Assembly: GCA_028715625.1 (NCBI GenBank)
Contig: JAQURL010000021.1
Location: forward strand, 1-39,064
Reading direction: 5' to 3'
DNA length: 39,064 nt
Source of the DNA: Candidatus Margulisiibacteriota bacterium
GTDB taxonomy: Bacteria > Margulisbacteria > Riflemargulisbacteria > GWF2-35-9
Position numbers and translations under genes: made by a program. Shown here in pieces: positions 31,325 through 39,009 of this stretch (position 1 is the stretch's first letter; the number at the start of each line of letters is the position of its first letter). The notes below the pieces were generated by a model. That model did not search any database and was not told the origin of the DNA. It was given only the letters and a program-made list of their open reading frames with translations.

Positions 31325-32545
31325 ATGATAAAACCTGAAATAATTCCGCAGAAAATTTATAAAGAAATTGCCGATAACGAAGGAATTACCGTGGAAAGCC
31401 TGAGGATTCTGGTAAAGCAGGGGAAGGCTGTCGTCTTATATAATAAATTACACAAAAATGTTAAACCTATAGCCATTGGCAAGGGATTATCCATCAAGAT
31501 TAATGCCAATATCGGTACTTCTCCGGCTTGTCAGGACCTTAGCCAGGAAATAAAAAAGGTTCAGCTTTGCGAAAAATATGGAGTAGATACACTTATGGAT
31601 TTGTCACTTGGAGAAAATATCCGTTCCTTAAGACAGCAGATAATAAAGAGAACAAGCATGCCGCTTGGTACAGTGCCGGTATATGAACTTTTTTATTATA
31701 ACCAGAATTATCCCAGGGACATGTCTGCCAAATTTTTAAAAATACTTGATGAAAGCGGCCAGGATGGTGTGGATTTTGTGGTTATTCACGCAGGACTTTT
31801 AAGGAAGCATCTGGAGCTGGTTAAATCCAGAATTATAAAGGTGACTAGCCGCGGTGGTTCCCTGCTGATGAAATGGATGCAAAAACATAACAAAGAAAAT
31901 TTTTTATATGAACATTTTGATGAAATACTGCAGATTTGTAAAAAATACAACATGACAATTTCTTTGGGCGACGGCATGAGACCGGCTACAGTAATAGATG
32001 AAACCGATGAAGCACAACTGGAGGAGCTCAGAAATATCGGCGATCTGGTTTTGCGGGCAAGAAAAGCAGGTGTGCAGACAATAGTGGAAGGCCCTGGACA
32101 TATTCCTTTCCACAGGATCGAATTGAACATCAAACTGCAAAAAAAATATTGTCATGGCGCTCCTTTTTATGTTTTAGGCCCGCTGGTTACTGATATAGCA
32201 CCGGGCTATGATCATATTACTGCGGCAATAGGGGCAACAATGGCAGCGCATGCCGGAGCTGATTTTTTATGTTATGTCACGCCCTCCGAACATTTATCCT
32301 TGCCCAATCTGGATGATGTAAAAGAGGGTATCATTGCTTTCAAAATCGCTGCTCATGCAGTGGATATAACCCGAGGTAAAGGTCTGGATAGAGACCGAAA
32401 ACTTTCTGAGGCCAGGGCCAAACTGGATTGGGCAACTCAGAAAAAGTATGCTCTTGATCCTGATTCCTTTGATAAATATATGAAAAAAACTCCTGAAGAA
32501 ATGAAAGCATGCACCATGTGCGGTGAATTCTGCGCCTTAAAGTAA
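31325..32545 (+). CDS. thiC: Phosphomethylpyrimidine synthase ThiC, short form
   Basis: Radical-SAM enzyme that turns aminoimidazole ribotide into hydroxymethylpyrimidine phosphate for thiamine. 406 residues, the short form without the extra N-terminal domain of the E. coli enzyme. Landmarks: GVDTLMDLSLGENIRSLRQQI, TSRGGSLLMKWM, SLGDGMRPA, EGPGHIPFHRIE, GPLVTDIAPGYDHITAAIGA, CYVTPSEHLSLPNLDDVKEG and KIAAHAVDITRG. The C-terminal iron-sulphur triad is C396, C399 and C403 (CTMCGEFC), that is Cx2Cx3C; the well-studied long enzymes have Cx2Cx4C. BzaF, the benzimidazole-forming paralogue, is similar in size, but the thiL neighbour favours ThiC. It starts right at the epimerase stop, so no room for a TPP riboswitch exists directly upstream. 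Confidence 0.92.
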   Translation: MIKPEIIPQKIYKEIADNEGITVESLRILVKQGKAVVLYNKLHKNVKPIAIGKGLSIKINANIGTSPACQDLSQEIKKVQLCEKYGVDTLMDLSLGENIRSLRQQIIKRTSMPLGTVPVYELFYYNQNYPRDMSAKFLKILDESGQDGVDFVVIHAGLLRKHLELVKSRIIKVTSRGGSLLMKWMQKHNKENFLYEHFDEILQICKKYNMTISLGDGMRPATVIDETDEAQLEELRNIGDLVLRARKAGVQTIVEGPGHIPFHRIELNIKLQKKYCHGAPFYVLGPLVTDIAPGYDHITAAIGATMAAHAGADFLCYVTPSEHLSLPNLDDVKEGIIAFKIAAHAVDITRGKGLDRDRKLSEARAKLDWATQKKYALDPDSFDKYMKKTPEEMKACTMCGEFCALK

Positions 32546-32558
32546 ATTCGGAGGTTTT

Positions 32559-33524
32559 ATGAACGAATTTCAGTTAATAGATTTTCTGGCCAAAGATTTT
32601 CCTGTATATCAGAAGAATGTTCAGAAGGGAATAGGTGACGATTGCGCAGTTTGGAAAGGAGGGAAAAAATATATAGTTTTTACAACCGATACTATGGTTG
32701 AAGGTGATCACTTTTTAAAGCAGTGGTTTTCTCCGGAACAAATAGGAGCCCGTCTGGCTGAAATAAATTTAAGTGATATCGCTGCTATGGGTGCTTCACC
32801 AAAATTTTTATTTGTTTCTTTGATACTTGATAAACAAACGTCACCTGAATGGTGCCATAAAGTCTATCAGGGGATCAAAAAATCAATTACTCCCTACAAG
32901 ATATCTTTATTGGGTGGCAATATTACTCACGGGAAAACTTTATCACTTACTGCCTCTGTTATAGGAGAAAGCCTGTACAAACCAATATACAGATCCGGCG
33001 CCAGGCACGGTGACCTGCTTGCAATTACCGGAACAGTAGGTGATGCGTGTGTGGCGAGATTGTTATTGAAGCAGAATGATACGCCAGTTCCTGCGCTTTT
33101 TAAAAAATTGGCCGAACCGAAAGCCAGGATCAAAGAAGCGCAAATTATTAAGAAATACGCTTCATCAATGATTGATATAAGTGACGGTATAGCCTCGGAA
33201 GCCAGACATATTGCCAAAGAAAGCGAAACGGGGGTATCTGTGCTTGCTGACAAACTGCCATTTTCCAAAGCAGCCCTGAATGCTGAGCCTCAAATTCGTG
33301 TCAGTTTGGTTGACTGTGCTTTAAGGGGAGGGGAAGATTACGAGTTGATGTTTACCGCAACTGAAAAAAATTATAATAAACTTATCAAAGAATATAAACT
33401 GAAAACTCCGCTCACCGTTATCGGAACTATAATAAAAAAGAAAAAATATTGTTATCAGCAGGATAGTAAGGAGTACGAGCTTCCTTCAGGGTTTGATCAC
33501 TTTCAGCAGAATATAAATCTGTAA
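32559..33524 (+). CDS. thiL: Thiamine-monophosphate kinase
   Basis: Phosphorylates thiamine monophosphate to thiamine diphosphate, the last step of thiamine synthesis. 321 residues, the family's normal length. Motifs: GIGDDCAVW at the N-terminus, TTDTMVEGDHFLKQWFSPEQIG, INLSDIAAMGASPKF, LLGGNITHGKTLSLTASVIG, GTVGDACVARLLL, MIDISDGIASEARHIA, and ALRGGEDYELMF. The ATG has GGAGG four nt upstream, 14 nt after thiC, so it is expressed with thiC. Confidence 0.95.
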   Translation: MNEFQLIDFLAKDFPVYQKNVQKGIGDDCAVWKGGKKYIVFTTDTMVEGDHFLKQWFSPEQIGARLAEINLSDIAAMGASPKFLFVSLILDKQTSPEWCHKVYQGIKKSITPYKISLLGGNITHGKTLSLTASVIGESLYKPIYRSGARHGDLLAITGTVGDACVARLLLKQNDTPVPALFKKLAEPKARIKEAQIIKKYASSMIDISDGIASEARHIAKESETGVSVLADKLPFSKAALNAEPQIRVSLVDCALRGGEDYELMFTATEKNYNKLIKEYKLKTPLTVIGTIIKKKKYCYQQDSKEYELPSGFDHFQQNINL

Positions 33525-33674: not shown

Positions 33675-34835
33675 TTAATTGTATTCAGCGTTAATTTTTA
33701 CATAATCGTAGGACAAATCTGTTGTCCAGCCGCTAAAGCTTGAACTTCCAATGTTCAGGTCCAGTGTTATTAACAGTTTCTTATTTTTCATATACTTATC
33801 CAGCAGATTTTTTTCATAAGCCAATATAGTACCACCTTTAACAAGTTGGTAACTTCCAAAGTATAAATCTACCTTATCAGCAACCAGCGAAGACTTTATT
33901 TTTCCGGCAGAGCACAAGATGCGGCCGAAGTTTGGGTTTTCTCCGAAAATAGCTGTTTTTACCAGGGGGGAGTTGGCAATGGCGTAAAAAATATCACGGG
34001 CTTCTTTTTTGCTTTTGGCTTTCTGTATCTGGATTTCTACAAATTTTGTGCATCCTTCACCGTCTTCTATAATTTTTTTGGCAAGTTCGGCTGCAACTTC
34101 ACACAAAGCTTCCAGAAACTTTTCATCAGTTTGTGAAATTTTTTGTTTTTTATTGCTGGCCAGAATCATAAAAGTATCATTGGTCGAGGAATCACTGTCT
34201 ACAGTGATCCGGTGAAATGATTCAGCTGTAACTTTTTTTATCATTTTTCTCAGAGAAGACGAGCTGATAGTGGCATCTGTAAAGATAAAGGCCAGCATGG
34301 TAGCCATGTTCGGTTGGATCATGCCGCTTCCTTTGGCTGTTCCCAGAATATTAATTTCTTCATTGTTGATTATTATTTTTTTATGAACAACTTTTTGTAC
34401 CAGGTCTGTTGTGCAAATTGCTTCACTGAAAGCTGCTGCATCGTTTTTCAACCCACTAACTAATTTTTTGTAACTATTTGTGATTGTCTCCAACGGCAGA
34501 TTTTTACCGATAATACCTGTGGAAAATAATAATCCTTTTTTAGCGTCAAATTTAAGCAATGAACCTAAGTTTTTCAATAGAAAATGAATATCATTTAATC
34601 CTTTTTTCCCTGTTAAAGCATTGGCGTTACCGCTATTCACCATTAAAATTTCAAGTTTATCCTGACTTGTTTGTACAGCACGGGCGTTAATAGAACCTGG
34701 TGCAGCGAATTTATTAGTAGTTGTAACAAGTGCAAAGGAGGCTCCATCTTTTGCGTAAACCAGTCCCAAATCAAGTTTGCTTTTTTTTATACCACTGTGT
34801 ATCCCGGAAAACTGGAAACCATCTATGCTATACAT
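33675..34835 (-). CDS. argJ: Bifunctional ornithine/glutamate N-acetyltransferase
   Basis: Transfers the acetyl group from N-acetylornithine to glutamate in arginine synthesis (and in some species also uses acetyl-CoA). 386 residues. The self-cleavage site is visible: KGSGMIQPNMATMLAF with Thr179 as the expected N-terminal nucleophile of the beta chain (cut between Ala178 and Thr179). Other family blocks are GLVYAKDGASFALVTT, NSGNANALTG, STGIIG and VDSDSSTNDT. The ATG follows AAGGAG at 6 nt, and that site lies inside the end of the upstream LeuD-like gene, one nt before. No other arg gene is in the window, so its link to the LeuC/LeuD-like pair is unexplained. Confidence 0.95.
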   Translation of the reverse strand: MYSIDGFQFSGIHSGIKKSKLDLGLVYAKDGASFALVTTTNKFAAPGSINARAVQTSQDKLEILMVNSGNANALTGKKGLNDIHFLLKNLGSLLKFDAKKGLLFSTGIIGKNLPLETITNSYKKLVSGLKNDAAAFSEAICTTDLVQKVVHKKIIINNEEINILGTAKGSGMIQPNMATMLAFIFTDATISSSSLRKMIKKVTAESFHRITVDSDSSTNDTFMILASNKKQKISQTDEKFLEALCEVAAELAKKIIEDGEGCTKFVEIQIQKAKSKKEARDIFYAIANSPLVKTAIFGENPNFGRILCSAGKIKSSLVADKVDLYFGSYQLVKGGTILAYEKNLLDKYMKNKKLLITLDLNIGSSSFSGWTTDLSYDYVKINAEYN

Positions 34836-34836
34836 A

Positions 34837-35334
34837 TCAGACTCCTTCTTTAAAAATAGTATTTAATAGCCCACCGTTCAGATAAAGATTATAAAAATAT
34901 TTCTTTATGGGTTTTATTTTAATACCCAGTTGTTTGGTTTTATTTTGAATGAAACTCTGAATAAGGTCAATTTTTAGATCATCATCATCATCAATGTAAT
35001 CTGTATTGGCATTAATACACAATAGCCCGATATTGTAGGCATTTTTATAAAAACAGGGGAAAAAAGATTTGGCGATAATTGCGTTTACACCATTTTTTTT
35101 CAAAGAAATAGCCGGCATTTCATTAGATGACCCATAACTGAAGTTTTCACCCACTACCAAAATTGATTTGGAAAAAACTTCTTCGGTAAAGTTAGGTATT
35201 TTATTTACAAAAGGTATCATATTGTGCCCGCTGTGATAAGATTCAGTGATGCTGGTACTTATGATATCCTTGGAGGAAATAACAGCATCAATTTTAAAAG
35301 CTTTGCCAGTAATAATTTCAAATTTTAAGGACAA
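34837..35334 (-). CDS. LeuD-like (aconitase swivel domain) small subunit, catalytic motif degenerate
   Basis: 165 residues with the swivel-domain fold of isopropylmalate dehydratase small subunit. The usual GSSREHA substrate-binding motif is present only as GSSNEMP (residues 68-74): the substrate-binding Arg and the His are gone. The next block IIAKSFFPCFYKNAYNIGL (from residue 86) keeps the KSF and the N-x-x-N-I-G-L pattern. An acidic run encoded by (ATC)5 on the opposite strand (34978-34992) gives DDDDD. TTG at 35334 is taken as start because AGGAGGG lies about 7 nt upstream; a TTG at 35352 lies before that site. It overlaps the LeuC-like gene by 10 nt and is followed within one nt by argJ. 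The open frame argues against decay, so a changed function is likely. Confidence 0.8.
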   Translation of the reverse strand: MSLKFEIITGKAFKIDAVISSKDIISTSITESYHSGHNMIPFVNKIPNFTEEVFSKSILVVGENFSYGSSNEMPAISLKKNGVNAIIAKSFFPCFYKNAYNIGLLCINANTDYIDDDDDLKIDLIQSFIQNKTKQLGIKIKPIKKYFYNLYLNGGLLNTIFKEGV

Positions 35335-36548
35335 ACTGCTCCCTCCTCGCAAGTTGCTAAGTGTCCGGTTATGGCTGTATTTATCGCTGTTTCAATTGAA
35401 GATGTATAAAATTCCATAGGAATTTCTTTAACCTGTATGGACAATATATTTACAGCTGTAGAAACTATATTTTCTCCCTCAATCGGTATTAAACCATTGG
35501 TTGCCGAACTTATTCCGGTAGAGGGAGTAAGCAAAATACAACCACCATTCAATATTGATGTCATATATCCTTTTTGCATGGCTTCAGTAAGTATTTTGTG
35601 GGATGAAGGTGTCACGAAACAGGGTATTTTTACTTTTTTGTCAGCCAGAATTTTTGCTAAAAATTCCATATCTGCCAGCGTTCCGCCAATGCTGTTACCA
35701 ATGAAAACTTTATCAATTTTTTTGTCGCACAGCTCTTTAACTCCCAATATTTTTCCGTTATTTTCCACAAGAGGTGACAAATTTGTAAGATCAAAAGTGA
35801 ATTCCTTGGCATATTTTACTTTGCTGTCTGGAAAAACTCCGCACATTACTTTGTTTATTTGTTGAAGAGGAGGAAAAGTAAATGAAGACGCATTCATATT
35901 ATAATGATGAAGAGCAAGGGAATATAGATCTTTGGCAGAAATTTCTTCAAGCAGAGATCCGGAAAATTCCAGTAAATAATGTCCGTTCATCAAACTGGAG
36001 GAAAGTTCTTTAATCAAATAAAGCGCTATGTCTTTGCCGGAAATATTTTGTTGAAGATGACCCTCAAGTACAATATGAATGACCTCCGGAACCAGATAAT
36101 CATGCTTGCTAGTTATCATAGCTTGAATAATATCCTGCATGCCGGAACTGATATTTAAATTATTTAAAGGTGAAAAAAAGTTGATTGTTGATGCACGGCC
36201 CAGAAATATATTGCCGGGCTCAATTATATTTTTTTGCAACAAATTATAAAACCATAAACCTTTATAATTATCCAGGATTTTAAATTTATACTTTTTGGCC
36301 AGGTCCAGAATTTTCTTCTGAATATGACTGTATGAAAACTCATATTGATAGGGGAAATTGGTCAGGGCCAGATATATATTTTCGTGGTGAGGTTTAATCT
36401 GATGATTTTCCAGAATATCAAAAATAGGGACTACACTATTGTCAGGTATCAGAATATGATCCACGTCTACAGAGATGATTTCATCTGGAGCAATATTTTT
36501 ACTTTTGGAATGAAGCTTGAGAATTTTTTCCAGAATAGTACCCTGCAT
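35325..36548 (-). CDS. LeuC-like (aconitase family) large subunit lacking the Fe-S cysteines
   Basis: 407 residues, about the length of short (archaeal-type) LeuC. Family order is clear: TILEKILKLHSKS, later VPEVIHIVLEGHLQQNISGKDIALYLI, LEFSGSLLEEISAKDLYSLALHH, DKVFIGNSIGGTLADM and AINTAITGHLAT. Each active-site signature is altered: GDSHT is GRAST (117-121), IGSCTN is IGNSIG (from 284), and the PGCSMC-type double-Cys block is PSTGIS (342-347). All three [4Fe-4S] ligand cysteines are thus replaced. Normal dehydratase activity is not expected. The ATG at 36548 is used because a TGATATAAT -10 box ends 9 nt before it; an ATG at 36557 would lie inside the promoter. It is followed by the equally degenerate LeuD-like subunit and argJ. 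Confidence 0.8.
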   Translation of the reverse strand: MQGTILEKILKLHSKSKNIAPDEIISVDVDHILIPDNSVVPIFDILENHQIKPHHENIYLALTNFPYQYEFSYSHIQKKILDLAKKYKFKILDNYKGLWFYNLLQKNIIEPGNIFLGRASTINFFSPLNNLNISSGMQDIIQAMITSKHDYLVPEVIHIVLEGHLQQNISGKDIALYLIKELSSSLMNGHYLLEFSGSLLEEISAKDLYSLALHHYNMNASSFTFPPLQQINKVMCGVFPDSKVKYAKEFTFDLTNLSPLVENNGKILGVKELCDKKIDKVFIGNSIGGTLADMEFLAKILADKKVKIPCFVTPSSHKILTEAMQKGYMTSILNGGCILLTPSTGISSATNGLIPIEGENIVSTAVNILSIQVKEIPMEFYTSSIETAINTAITGHLATCEEGAVCP

Positions 36549-36632: not shown

Positions 36633-37538
36633 ATGGGGGCATTTAGGTATTTTCAGAAATATTTGGTTGCGTGCTTTGTGCTGGCAACATCTATTACATT
36701 GTGCCTCGACTTCACACAATCAGCCGATATTCATTTCAGATATGGTTTCGGAAGTAATTTCAACGATGGTAATCAGGTCTTCAGCATGGACCGATCTTAT
36801 TATACTTTTAATTTACAAGCCAATAATCACACATCAACGGTTGTAAAATTAAATCTTAACACTTCATCCAACGTGAATAATCTTAACCCTGATTTCATCA
36901 ATAATGCCTACGTGCAAATCGGGCATATGATAATCGGGAAACAAACCATACCCTTCGGCAGTTATACAAATCGTGGAATAGCTGACCCTTTTTCCAGAAC
37001 ATTTGAAGAAATTGTCAGAGCAGGTATATCTTCACAGCTCGATTTTAATCAAATTTTATTTATTAACGGTGCACTTGTTAACAACGGAGTAAATGATTCC
37101 ATGACAGCAGCTGCTATGAAGATCAGTCTTATGCCAAAAAAAGAATATCTTTTTCAGCAGTCTGTGTTTATTGATCAGGAAAATAACAATGGCTCCAAGG
37201 TTTATCGTGTGGATATTCATGGAATGGTTTCTATTGCGGTAAGCAAAGCAATTCTTGACCTTGAGGTTTATCGTTGCCTTTTTGGGAATAATAAAAACGC
37301 CATGACTATAGATGCCTCGTTACTTGTTTCGGCACTTGAAGATATGGATACTGTATTACGTATAAGTTATGCCAACTCAGTTGCAGCGACAGTGTTGAAC
37401 AAATCTGTTTCGATTTCCGCCGGATTAAATTATCACCTTAACAGTAATCTGATTTTATCTTTTGAAGGAGCTTATATCAGTAAACCGGCAAATACTTCAG
37501 CTATAAACATGTTATCAATGCTTTCTATAAATTTCTAA
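36633..37538 (+). CDS. Putative outer-membrane beta-barrel protein (porin-like)
   Basis: 301 residues, specific family not recognised. A signal peptide is visible (basic start, hydrophobic core YLVACFVLATSITLCLDF, possible cut after FTQSA near residue 31). The mature part is made of alternating hydrophobic/polar strands rich in Asn and Ser, with DRSYYTFNLQANNH, AYVQIGHMIIGKQTIPFGSYTNRG and a final strand ending in SINF. A C-terminal Phe with alternating hydrophobic residues is the BAM assembly signal. The KQTIPFGSYTNRG stretch recalls the conserved segment of phosphate-selective-type porins. Single gene with a leaderless-type start. Cargo unknown. Confidence 0.72.
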   Translation: MGAFRYFQKYLVACFVLATSITLCLDFTQSADIHFRYGFGSNFNDGNQVFSMDRSYYTFNLQANNHTSTVVKLNLNTSSNVNNLNPDFINNAYVQIGHMIIGKQTIPFGSYTNRGIADPFSRTFEEIVRAGISSQLDFNQILFINGALVNNGVNDSMTAAAMKISLMPKKEYLFQQSVFIDQENNNGSKVYRVDIHGMVSIAVSKAILDLEVYRCLFGNNKNAMTIDASLLVSALEDMDTVLRISYANSVAATVLNKSVSISAGLNYHLNSNLILSFEGAYISKPANTSAINMLSMLSINF

Positions 37539-37550
37539 ATACTTTATAAT
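37522..37550 (+). promoter_or_regulatory. Candidate promoter of the patatin gene
   Basis: TTTCTA (37522-37527, poor -35), 17-nt spacer, TATAAT (37545-37550). The start codon GTG is 8 nt further, so the mRNA would be nearly leaderless. The promoter overlaps the end of the outer-membrane protein gene. Confidence 0.4.
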
Positions 37551-37558
37551 AGTTAGTT

Positions 37559-38347
37559 GTGGCAAAAAAGAATAAAAAAATATTAGGTCTGGCGTTGGGT
37601 GGTGGCAGTCTGCGCGGGCTGGCGCATGTGGGCGTGCTTAAGGTTATCGAGGAATATAGGATCAAGATTGATTATTTGGCCGGTACGAGTATCGGATCCA
37701 TAATAGGCGCTCTTTACGCAGACGGAATGACAGTAAAAGAAATTATAGCTGTTTCCAGACGCATCAAGTGGAACAATTTTTATCAGTTTTCCTTTCAATT
37801 AAGCGGGCTCAGCAACAGCAAAGCTATAGACAATCTTATCAAAACTTTTATCAAACATGATAGTTTTTCAAAGTTAAAAATACCTTTTTCAGTTACAGCA
37901 AGCAATATCACAAAAGGCAAAATGGTGGTTATTAAATCAGGGAGTTTATCCAGTGCTATTCAAATGAGCGCTAGTTTCCCGGGAATATATACACCAGTAA
38001 TTCAAAAAAATGAAATTTTTTGTGACGGGGGTGTTTTTTGTAATCTTCCGGTGCAGCTTGTCAAAAAAATGGGCGCGGAAATTATAGTCGGAGTAGATGT
38101 AATTCCCAAGAGCGATATGGACCCTAAAAAAAATAAAACATACACAATGTTAAATATTATGGACAGGTCATTGGATCTGATGCTAAAAGAACAAATAAAA
38201 GAACTTACTTGTGATTTATTAATGGAACCTGTTAACCAGGACATCAATTCCTTTGACTTAAAGAAAAAGGAAGACCTTATGAAAATGGGTGAAAAATGTG
38301 CCCGTGAGACTTTGCTACCTTTTCTGCGCAAGCGTGGTTTTCTTTGA
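37559..38347 (+). CDS. Patatin-like phospholipase (RssA/YlbK type)
   Basis: 262-residue serine hydrolase with a Ser-Asp dyad, probably releasing fatty acids from phospholipids or acting as acyl hydrolase at the membrane. The oxyanion loop is GLALGGGSLRGLAHVGVL; the nucleophile sits in the GTSIGS elbow (about residue 43), and the Asp in the DGGVFCNLPV block. No signal peptide or membrane helix, so a cytoplasmic or peripheral location is likely. Starts with GTG without a ribosome-binding site. It converges on the next gene with only 2 nt between stop codons. Confidence 0.92.
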   Translation: MAKKNKKILGLALGGGSLRGLAHVGVLKVIEEYRIKIDYLAGTSIGSIIGALYADGMTVKEIIAVSRRIKWNNFYQFSFQLSGLSNSKAIDNLIKTFIKHDSFSKLKIPFSVTASNITKGKMVVIKSGSLSSAIQMSASFPGIYTPVIQKNEIFCDGGVFCNLPVQLVKKMGAEIIVGVDVIPKSDMDPKKNKTYTMLNIMDRSLDLMLKEQIKELTCDLLMEPVNQDINSFDLKKKEDLMKMGEKCARETLLPFLRKRGFL

Positions 38348-38349
38348 AT

Positions 38350-38955
38350 TTATTTACTTGTCTTGAGTTTATAAGAAGTACTTCTGCCCTGACCGATTTT
38401 TTCCAATATTCCCATTGTAAATAATGCAGTAAGTTCGATGTGTGCGGTTTTATGTGAAATGTTATATAAATTCCTATAAGTTTTATTGGTTACAAATTCT
38501 TTTTCTTTTACATACTTTAAACACTGTTCCTGCCTTTGATTCAATTTTACTGATTGTTCCTGACCGACATGCGAATAAATTTCCTCCTTGGCCATTTTTT
38601 TGATTTCTATCCCGGAGCGAAAATAATACTTGTTTCTGTAGGAATAGGGCTTATGCGATCCTTCTGGTACTTTTATAAGTATAACAATTTTATCCAGTCT
38701 CGCGATTTCCTCAATATACACGGTAACCGCGGGATCAATTTTCTGCACACTGGTTTCAATAAAATTTTTGGAAATATTGCTTCCTATCAAATGATCATTC
38801 TTATCATCAATACCGATTATGATTTTACCACCGTTATGATTGAGAAAACCTGTAATATATTTGATAAGTTGTTCGGCGGAAAGTATACTGGAAACAAATT
38901 CTATTTGCGGGCCTTCACCTTCGCGCAAGCAATCGATTACATCTTTCCAGGTCAT
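38350..38955 (-). CDS. AlbA_2 (Schlafen-type) domain protein with C-terminal helix-turn-helix, putative regulator
   Basis: 201 residues. The N-terminal domain (about 1-125) is of the AlbA_2/Schlafen type: EGPQIEFVSS, then FLNHNGGKIIIGIDDKNDHLIG, and later VILIKVPEGSHKPYSYRNKYYFRSG, the usual RxG end block. The C-terminal part (LNQRQEQCLKYVKEKEFVTN onward, to GRSTSYKL) reads as a winged helix for DNA binding. The canonical Lys after IEF is Val here. The ATG at 38955 is chosen since AAAGGGG lies 6 nt upstream; ATGs at 38976 and 38985 lie in or next to the promoter. Target genes are unknown; such proteins are often single transcription regulators. Confidence 0.82.
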   Translation of the reverse strand: MTWKDVIDCLREGEGPQIEFVSSILSAEQLIKYITGFLNHNGGKIIIGIDDKNDHLIGSNISKNFIETSVQKIDPAVTVYIEEIARLDKIVILIKVPEGSHKPYSYRNKYYFRSGIEIKKMAKEEIYSHVGQEQSVKLNQRQEQCLKYVKEKEFVTNKTYRNLYNISHKTAHIELTALFTMGILEKIGQGRSTSYKLKTSK

Positions 38956-38980
38956 TTTTACCCCTTTTTTAGTCATAATA

Positions 38981-39009
38981 AACATAACATAAAAAATTCA
39001 ATTAATCAA
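38981..39009 (-). promoter_or_regulatory. Candidate promoter of the AlbA_2 gene
   Basis: On the minus strand TTGATT (39009-39004), 17-nt spacer, TATGTT (38986-38981). Transcription would begin near 38974, giving a leader of about 19 nt that contains the AAAGGGG site. The remaining 55 nt to the window end are AT-rich with no gene. Confidence 0.4.

Follow-up and report, generated by a model that had tools for sequence, protein, structure and literature searches.

The closest described counterparts of the gene pair reported here are the LeuC and LeuD proteins of methanogen-type isopropylmalate dehydratase/homoaconitase (PDB: 4kp1, 4nqy, 4kp2; 2pkp, 3vba), with which the pair has in common a two-subunit layout and a full-length profile match. 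Unlike these enzymes, the pair is without the cluster cysteines, the carboxylate-binding arginines and the GSSREH motif. Aconitase X (AcnX), a cis-3-hydroxyproline or phosphomevalonate dehydratase, is a weaker fold match for the large subunit, and it illustrates that the superfamily is able to rebuild both its cluster and its substrate sites (PMC8184944). However, AcnX still has iron-sulfur clusters (PMC8184944, PMC10040528), unlike the present pair.

The pair, designated LeuC* and LeuD*, is encoded in the window, i.e., the whole stretch of 39,064 nucleotides that was analysed, which belongs to a genome of 2.6 Mb (G000) whose named relatives are Marinamargulisbacteria and a Termititenax-like family. 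LeuC* (35325-36548, minus strand) is a 407-residue large subunit of the aconitase family that lacks the cluster cysteines, and its frame runs from an ATG at 36548 to a stop at 35325. LeuD* (34837-35334, minus strand) is a LeuD-like small subunit of 165 residues. Its start is most likely the TTG at 35334, which has AGGAGG six bases upstream and results in a 10-nt overlap with the end of LeuC* (35325-35334, minus strand, read from the sequence); the list of open reading frames places the start instead at the TTG at 35352, from which the LeuD* residues are numbered below. The LeuD* stop (34837) is one base from the ATG (34835) of argJ (33675-34835, minus strand), of which no second copy was found in the genome and whose catalytic KGSGMI..NMATM motif is intact. 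These coordinates and the AGGAGG agree with the first-pass annotation, which had described two open frames with a 10-nt overlap, a ribosome-binding site and a 1-nt gap to argJ. ArgJ is the ornithine acetyltransferase, the enzyme that lets arginine synthesis reuse its acetyl group. The convergent thiL-like gene (32559-33524, plus strand) and the thiC-like gene (31325-32545, plus strand), whose products were judged from sequence, are not thought to be part of the system. On the other side, at 36633-38985, probable outer-membrane protein, patatin-like and AlbA-like genes keep their synteny with the operon throughout the order, except that G005 and G006 apparently lack the outer-membrane gene. Neither Rfam elements nor tRNA genes were found in the window.

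Family membership, cluster ligands and the former active site

Profile matches and the fold of LeuC* place the pair in the aconitase superfamily. LeuC* matches PF00330 with 69.5 bits (cut-off 28.7) and LeuD* matches PF00694 with 45.2 bits (cut-off 22.8), while the scores against TIGR02086 (LeuC*, 160.2 bits) and TIGR02087 (LeuD*, 95.9 bits) are under the curated cut-offs of 410.15 and 108.95, respectively. The Pfam and NCBIfam matches of the pair include no AcnX family model. An AlphaFold2 model of LeuC* has a pLDDT of 74, with low confidence mostly on the former active-site loops, and its best PDB match by Foldseek is 4kp1 (TM 0.74; E value 1.5e-26), the large subunit of the IPM isomerase from M. 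jannaschii. The LeuD* model (pLDDT 34) is too poor for use. Judged by its residues and scores, the pair fails the defining features of isopropylmalate dehydratase, namely the cysteines, GSSREH together with the arginines, and the curated score.

In the window, LeuC* carries GRAST, GNSIG and STGIS, and the GSSREHA of LeuD* has become GSSNEMP; these motifs, as listed in the first-pass annotation, were confirmed to the residue, and the loss of cluster-ligand and substrate-binding residues from both subunits is seen as well in alignments of the orthologues from the order. The positions in question are those that we take to correspond to Cys358, Cys421 and so on in bovine aconitase numbering. When aligned with canonical LeuC and aconitase, the equivalent of Cys358 is Ser, His or Thr and that of Cys421 is Thr in six of six LeuC* sequences, whereas the equivalent of Cys424 is still Cys in five of them and is Ser (STGIS) in the window only. 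The family as a whole has thus lost two or more of the three cysteines that hold a [4Fe-4S] cluster, and the window's LeuC* has lost all three. Similarly, the Asp of DST is kept in the other five LeuC* sequences and is replaced with Ala (GRAST) in the window only. The equivalents of N258, E262 and the carboxylate-binding arginines R447 and R452 are gone from LeuC*; neither subunit has an invariant Arg, GSSREH having changed to GSSNEMP and similar sequences. The alignment at aconitase D100/H101 is uncertain by one residue, so H101 is left out of these claims. Cysteines elsewhere in the fold, which could have replaced the ligands, were ruled out, since each subunit has a single invariant Cys. 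Two serines are retained: the first Ser of GSS (S642 equivalent; Ser75 of LeuD*, counted from the TTG at 35352) is invariant in 7/7 sequences, and the Ser of DST (S166 equivalent; Ser120 of LeuC*) in 6/6.

The residues lost were replaced by others. New invariant residues of LeuC* include T63, Y67, Q68, W99, N123, P127, N129, H214, H215, Y216 and N219. Conservation in LeuC* peaks in the former active-site loops (chosen manually on the alignments), where 46% of columns are invariant versus 18.5% elsewhere; none of 406 circular shifts reaches the 46%. Thus, the pocket has been rebuilt with another conserved residue set and is held by selection. Comparison of G003 with G004 gives a dN/dS ratio of about 0.03 for LeuC* (dN 0.047, dS 1.6) and about 0.02 for LeuD*, and comparison of G005 with G006 gives 0.06 for LeuD*; these values are approximate because synonymous sites are near saturation. 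Both frames are open in all genomes, in keeping with the earlier statement that there is no frame damage, and chance or damage is excluded because the orthologues in six further genomes are changed alike and are under strong purifying selection. The first-pass annotation had spoken of a loss of functions. The residues are indeed missing from both subunits, but "loss of function" is too simple a description, because the pocket was replaced by a different conserved set and did not drift.

Distribution, gene order and other LeuC and LeuD genes

The order comprises uncultured marine Margulisbacteria and was sampled with seven genomes (G000-G006), all of them derived from metagenomes; G007 served as the nearest outgroup. 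The pair is located directly upstream of argJ in all seven. Both subunits are present in six genomes, and in the remaining one (G002) the small subunit is at a contig end that cuts inside the large gene. Identity of the orthologues to the proteins of the window is 43-53% for the large and 56-62% for the small subunit. No orthologue was found in G007, and a scan of about 85,000 GTDB species revealed four members only, all within this order, although very divergent relatives could be missed because the scan used two peptide patterns.

All seven genomes keep another LeuC, with intact cluster motifs in those checked. Canonical leuCD genes with all cluster motifs are present in G002, G003 and G004 and elsewhere in the window's genome, while G005 and G006 have a LeuC with GTDSHT, GSCTGG and PSCAAC plus a GSSREHA small subunit. 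In G001, LeuC* is accompanied by two other LeuC genes. All seven genomes also contain an aconitase-type match about 645 residues long. LeuC* lies on a very long branch, and close kinship with the second LeuC of G007 was rejected as that protein keeps its cluster cysteines. Further divergent LeuC/LeuD pairs were observed in G007 and G001 (L016, L079); these keep the cluster cysteines and have altered motifs (GGESHS, GACTN).

In the six genomes with a complete large subunit, adjacent genes of the three overlap or are separated by no more than 14 nt, and the synteny with argJ holds in all seven genomes, with the gene order unchanged. However, thiL, thiC and the patatin-like gene are equally syntenic. 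In G007, moreover, argJ heads an argJ-argB-argF-argG-argH cluster (gene names judged in part from sequence) that is without LeuC*D* and close to thiL and thiC; within the order, argB-argF and argG-argH are sited away from the LeuC*-LeuD*-argJ genes. Synteny alone is therefore weak evidence, being shared by unrelated neighbours, of which thiL and thiC are close to argJ even in the outgroup.

Arginine pathway and amino-acid composition

In the order, argJ is single-copy in each genome and its product keeps the catalytic motifs. These ArgJ proteins have GENPN in place of GxDPN and WTxDL in place of WGCDL, unlike all nine other ArgJ sequences compared, and the changes could reflect co-adaptation or a changed specificity. 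The argB, argC and argF genes are present in 7/7 genomes, and argG/argH in those in which they could be seen (most), leaving no obvious gap in the pathway for a new hydro-lyase. The argD candidates of the order are under the curated score, and G000 is without one at the level of its relatives, which may be an assembly gap. A role for the pair in filling a missing arginine step was rejected: the steps tested are present, and argD requires a PLP enzyme, for which a hydro-lyase fold is an unlikely substitute. A match of about 158 residues to the acetyltransferase part of N-acetylglutamate synthase, under its curated cut-off, occurs in all nine genomes searched (in G000 at contig C43:7441-7821), and ArgJ may accordingly only recycle acetyl groups.

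Biosynthetic enzymes poor in their own product are documented as a cognate bias, although the arginine pathway enzyme scored in that work usually shows the opposite bias (PMC4209129). Within the order, the arginine percentile is 0.5-5 for ArgB and 1-20 for ArgJ, and the leucine percentile of canonical LeuC and LeuD is 0.4-9, low leucine being in part a general LeuC trait. LeuC* is at 0.5-18 for arginine and 52-80 for leucine, and LeuD* is more variable for arginine (0-76); these ranks rest on protein samples from each genome, loss of the pocket arginines contributes to them, and the genomes are not independent. Of 217 proteins sampled in G000, the pair is the poorest in arginine, with a single one among its 572 residues; ArgB of this genome (contig C103, L187) has 1 in 282, and ArgB depletion is strong in 7/7 genomes. 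The LeuC*-LeuD*-ArgJ trio is below every sampled same-strand triple in G000 (123), G005 (110) and G006 (85), while triples as low as the operon number 1/70 in G001, 6/69 in G003 and 5/71 in G004. The thi genes are mostly not arginine-poor. Because the pair, ArgJ and ArgB are all arginine-poor in the window's genome, composition points to arginine, not leucine, metabolism. The first-pass annotation had linked the pair to arginine or acetyl-amino-acid metabolism; composition favours the first, while the second has the neighbouring gene as its sole basis.

Proposed role and comparison with known systems

The results suggest that a cluster-free paralogue of isopropylmalate dehydratase has become a partner, or a control element, of the arginine pathway. 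A ligand-binding pseudo-isomerase that works with ArgJ best accounts for a pair that has kept its fold and has a conserved pocket, is without the cluster and is tightly linked to argJ. We propose that such a paralogue might have been recruited beside argJ in the ancestor of the order, that LeuC* and LeuD* would form a LeuCD-like heterodimer, that the rebuilt pocket of this heterodimer would hold a small metabolite but leave it unconverted, and that the heterodimer would contact ArgJ and set the activity or stability of that enzyme. To the reading that the heterodimer binds a metabolite and regulates or assists ArgJ we assign a probability of roughly 0.4. Against it are the synteny of unrelated neighbours, the arginine depletion, which is weak in G003 and G004 and is partly a result of pocket-arginine loss, and the invariant S642 and S166 equivalents, which leave room for chemistry. 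Somewhat more tentatively, an iron-sulfur isomerase without its metal site may have become, order-wide, a dedicated metabolite-sensing subunit of ornithine acetyltransferase that links the acetyl cycle to another metabolite.

The main rival, because the serines are retained, is an active cluster-free lyase, isomerase or hydrolase that would act on an arginine-pathway or acetylated metabolite without Lewis-acid iron, employing the S642-equivalent Ser as base and new His, Tyr and Asn residues as catalysts. The invariance of both serines and of H214, H215, Y216, N123, N129, Y67 and Q68 in the former active-site loops speaks for such an enzyme; nevertheless, we consider it rather unlikely, as no missing step was seen among those of the arginine pathway that were examined (argB, C, F, J; mostly G, H), the window's LeuC* has lost the DST Asp still found in its relatives, and the model has low confidence in the loops surrounding the site. 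A serious third option, less probable again, is a conserved function unrelated to ArgJ, the operon being an inherited neighbourhood. Other neighbours without an obvious link are just as syntenic, and the outgroup likewise has thiL, thiC and argJ close together, but the tight packing in all complete cases and the arginine depletion parallel with ArgJ in G000, G005 and G006, mostly not shared by the thi genes, speak against it. Gene order and packing would also suit a ligand-free scaffold or chaperone that helps ArgJ to mature or oligomerise. This is improbable, because conservation is higher in the pocket than elsewhere in the protein, which a pure scaffold would not require. There is still less reason to expect an RNA-binding regulator like apo-IRP1: although the LeuC* model also matches the folds of IRP1 and IRP2, it does so less well than that of IPMI, four of the six large subunits have a pI of 5.3-6.1, no Arg is invariant and the window has no Rfam element. 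A decaying pseudogene pair, which the additional motif residues lost in the window's copy might suggest and which had been named as what would overturn the first interpretation, is rejected, given seven genomes with open frames and purifying selection at a dN/dS of about 0.03.

In the open papers searched, no description was found of a cluster-free two-subunit member of the aconitase superfamily, of a cluster-free LeuCD pair or of a protein partner of ArgJ. YbhJ of E. coli, an uncharacterised aconitase-family member, was rejected as a cluster-free precedent since it keeps its cysteines, with DSHT, the GCSGG cysteine and CGPC. If the proposal is true, the aconitase fold can leave metal chemistry and ArgJ gains a dedicated partner, in a small three-gene operon that is open to experimental testing and comes from a lineage of metagenome-derived genomes. 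The arrangement would resemble that of HisZ, an inactive histidyl-tRNA synthetase paralogue that is the regulatory subunit for HisG; fold and pathway are unrelated, and HisZ-HisG is an analogy only for LeuC*D* and ArgJ.
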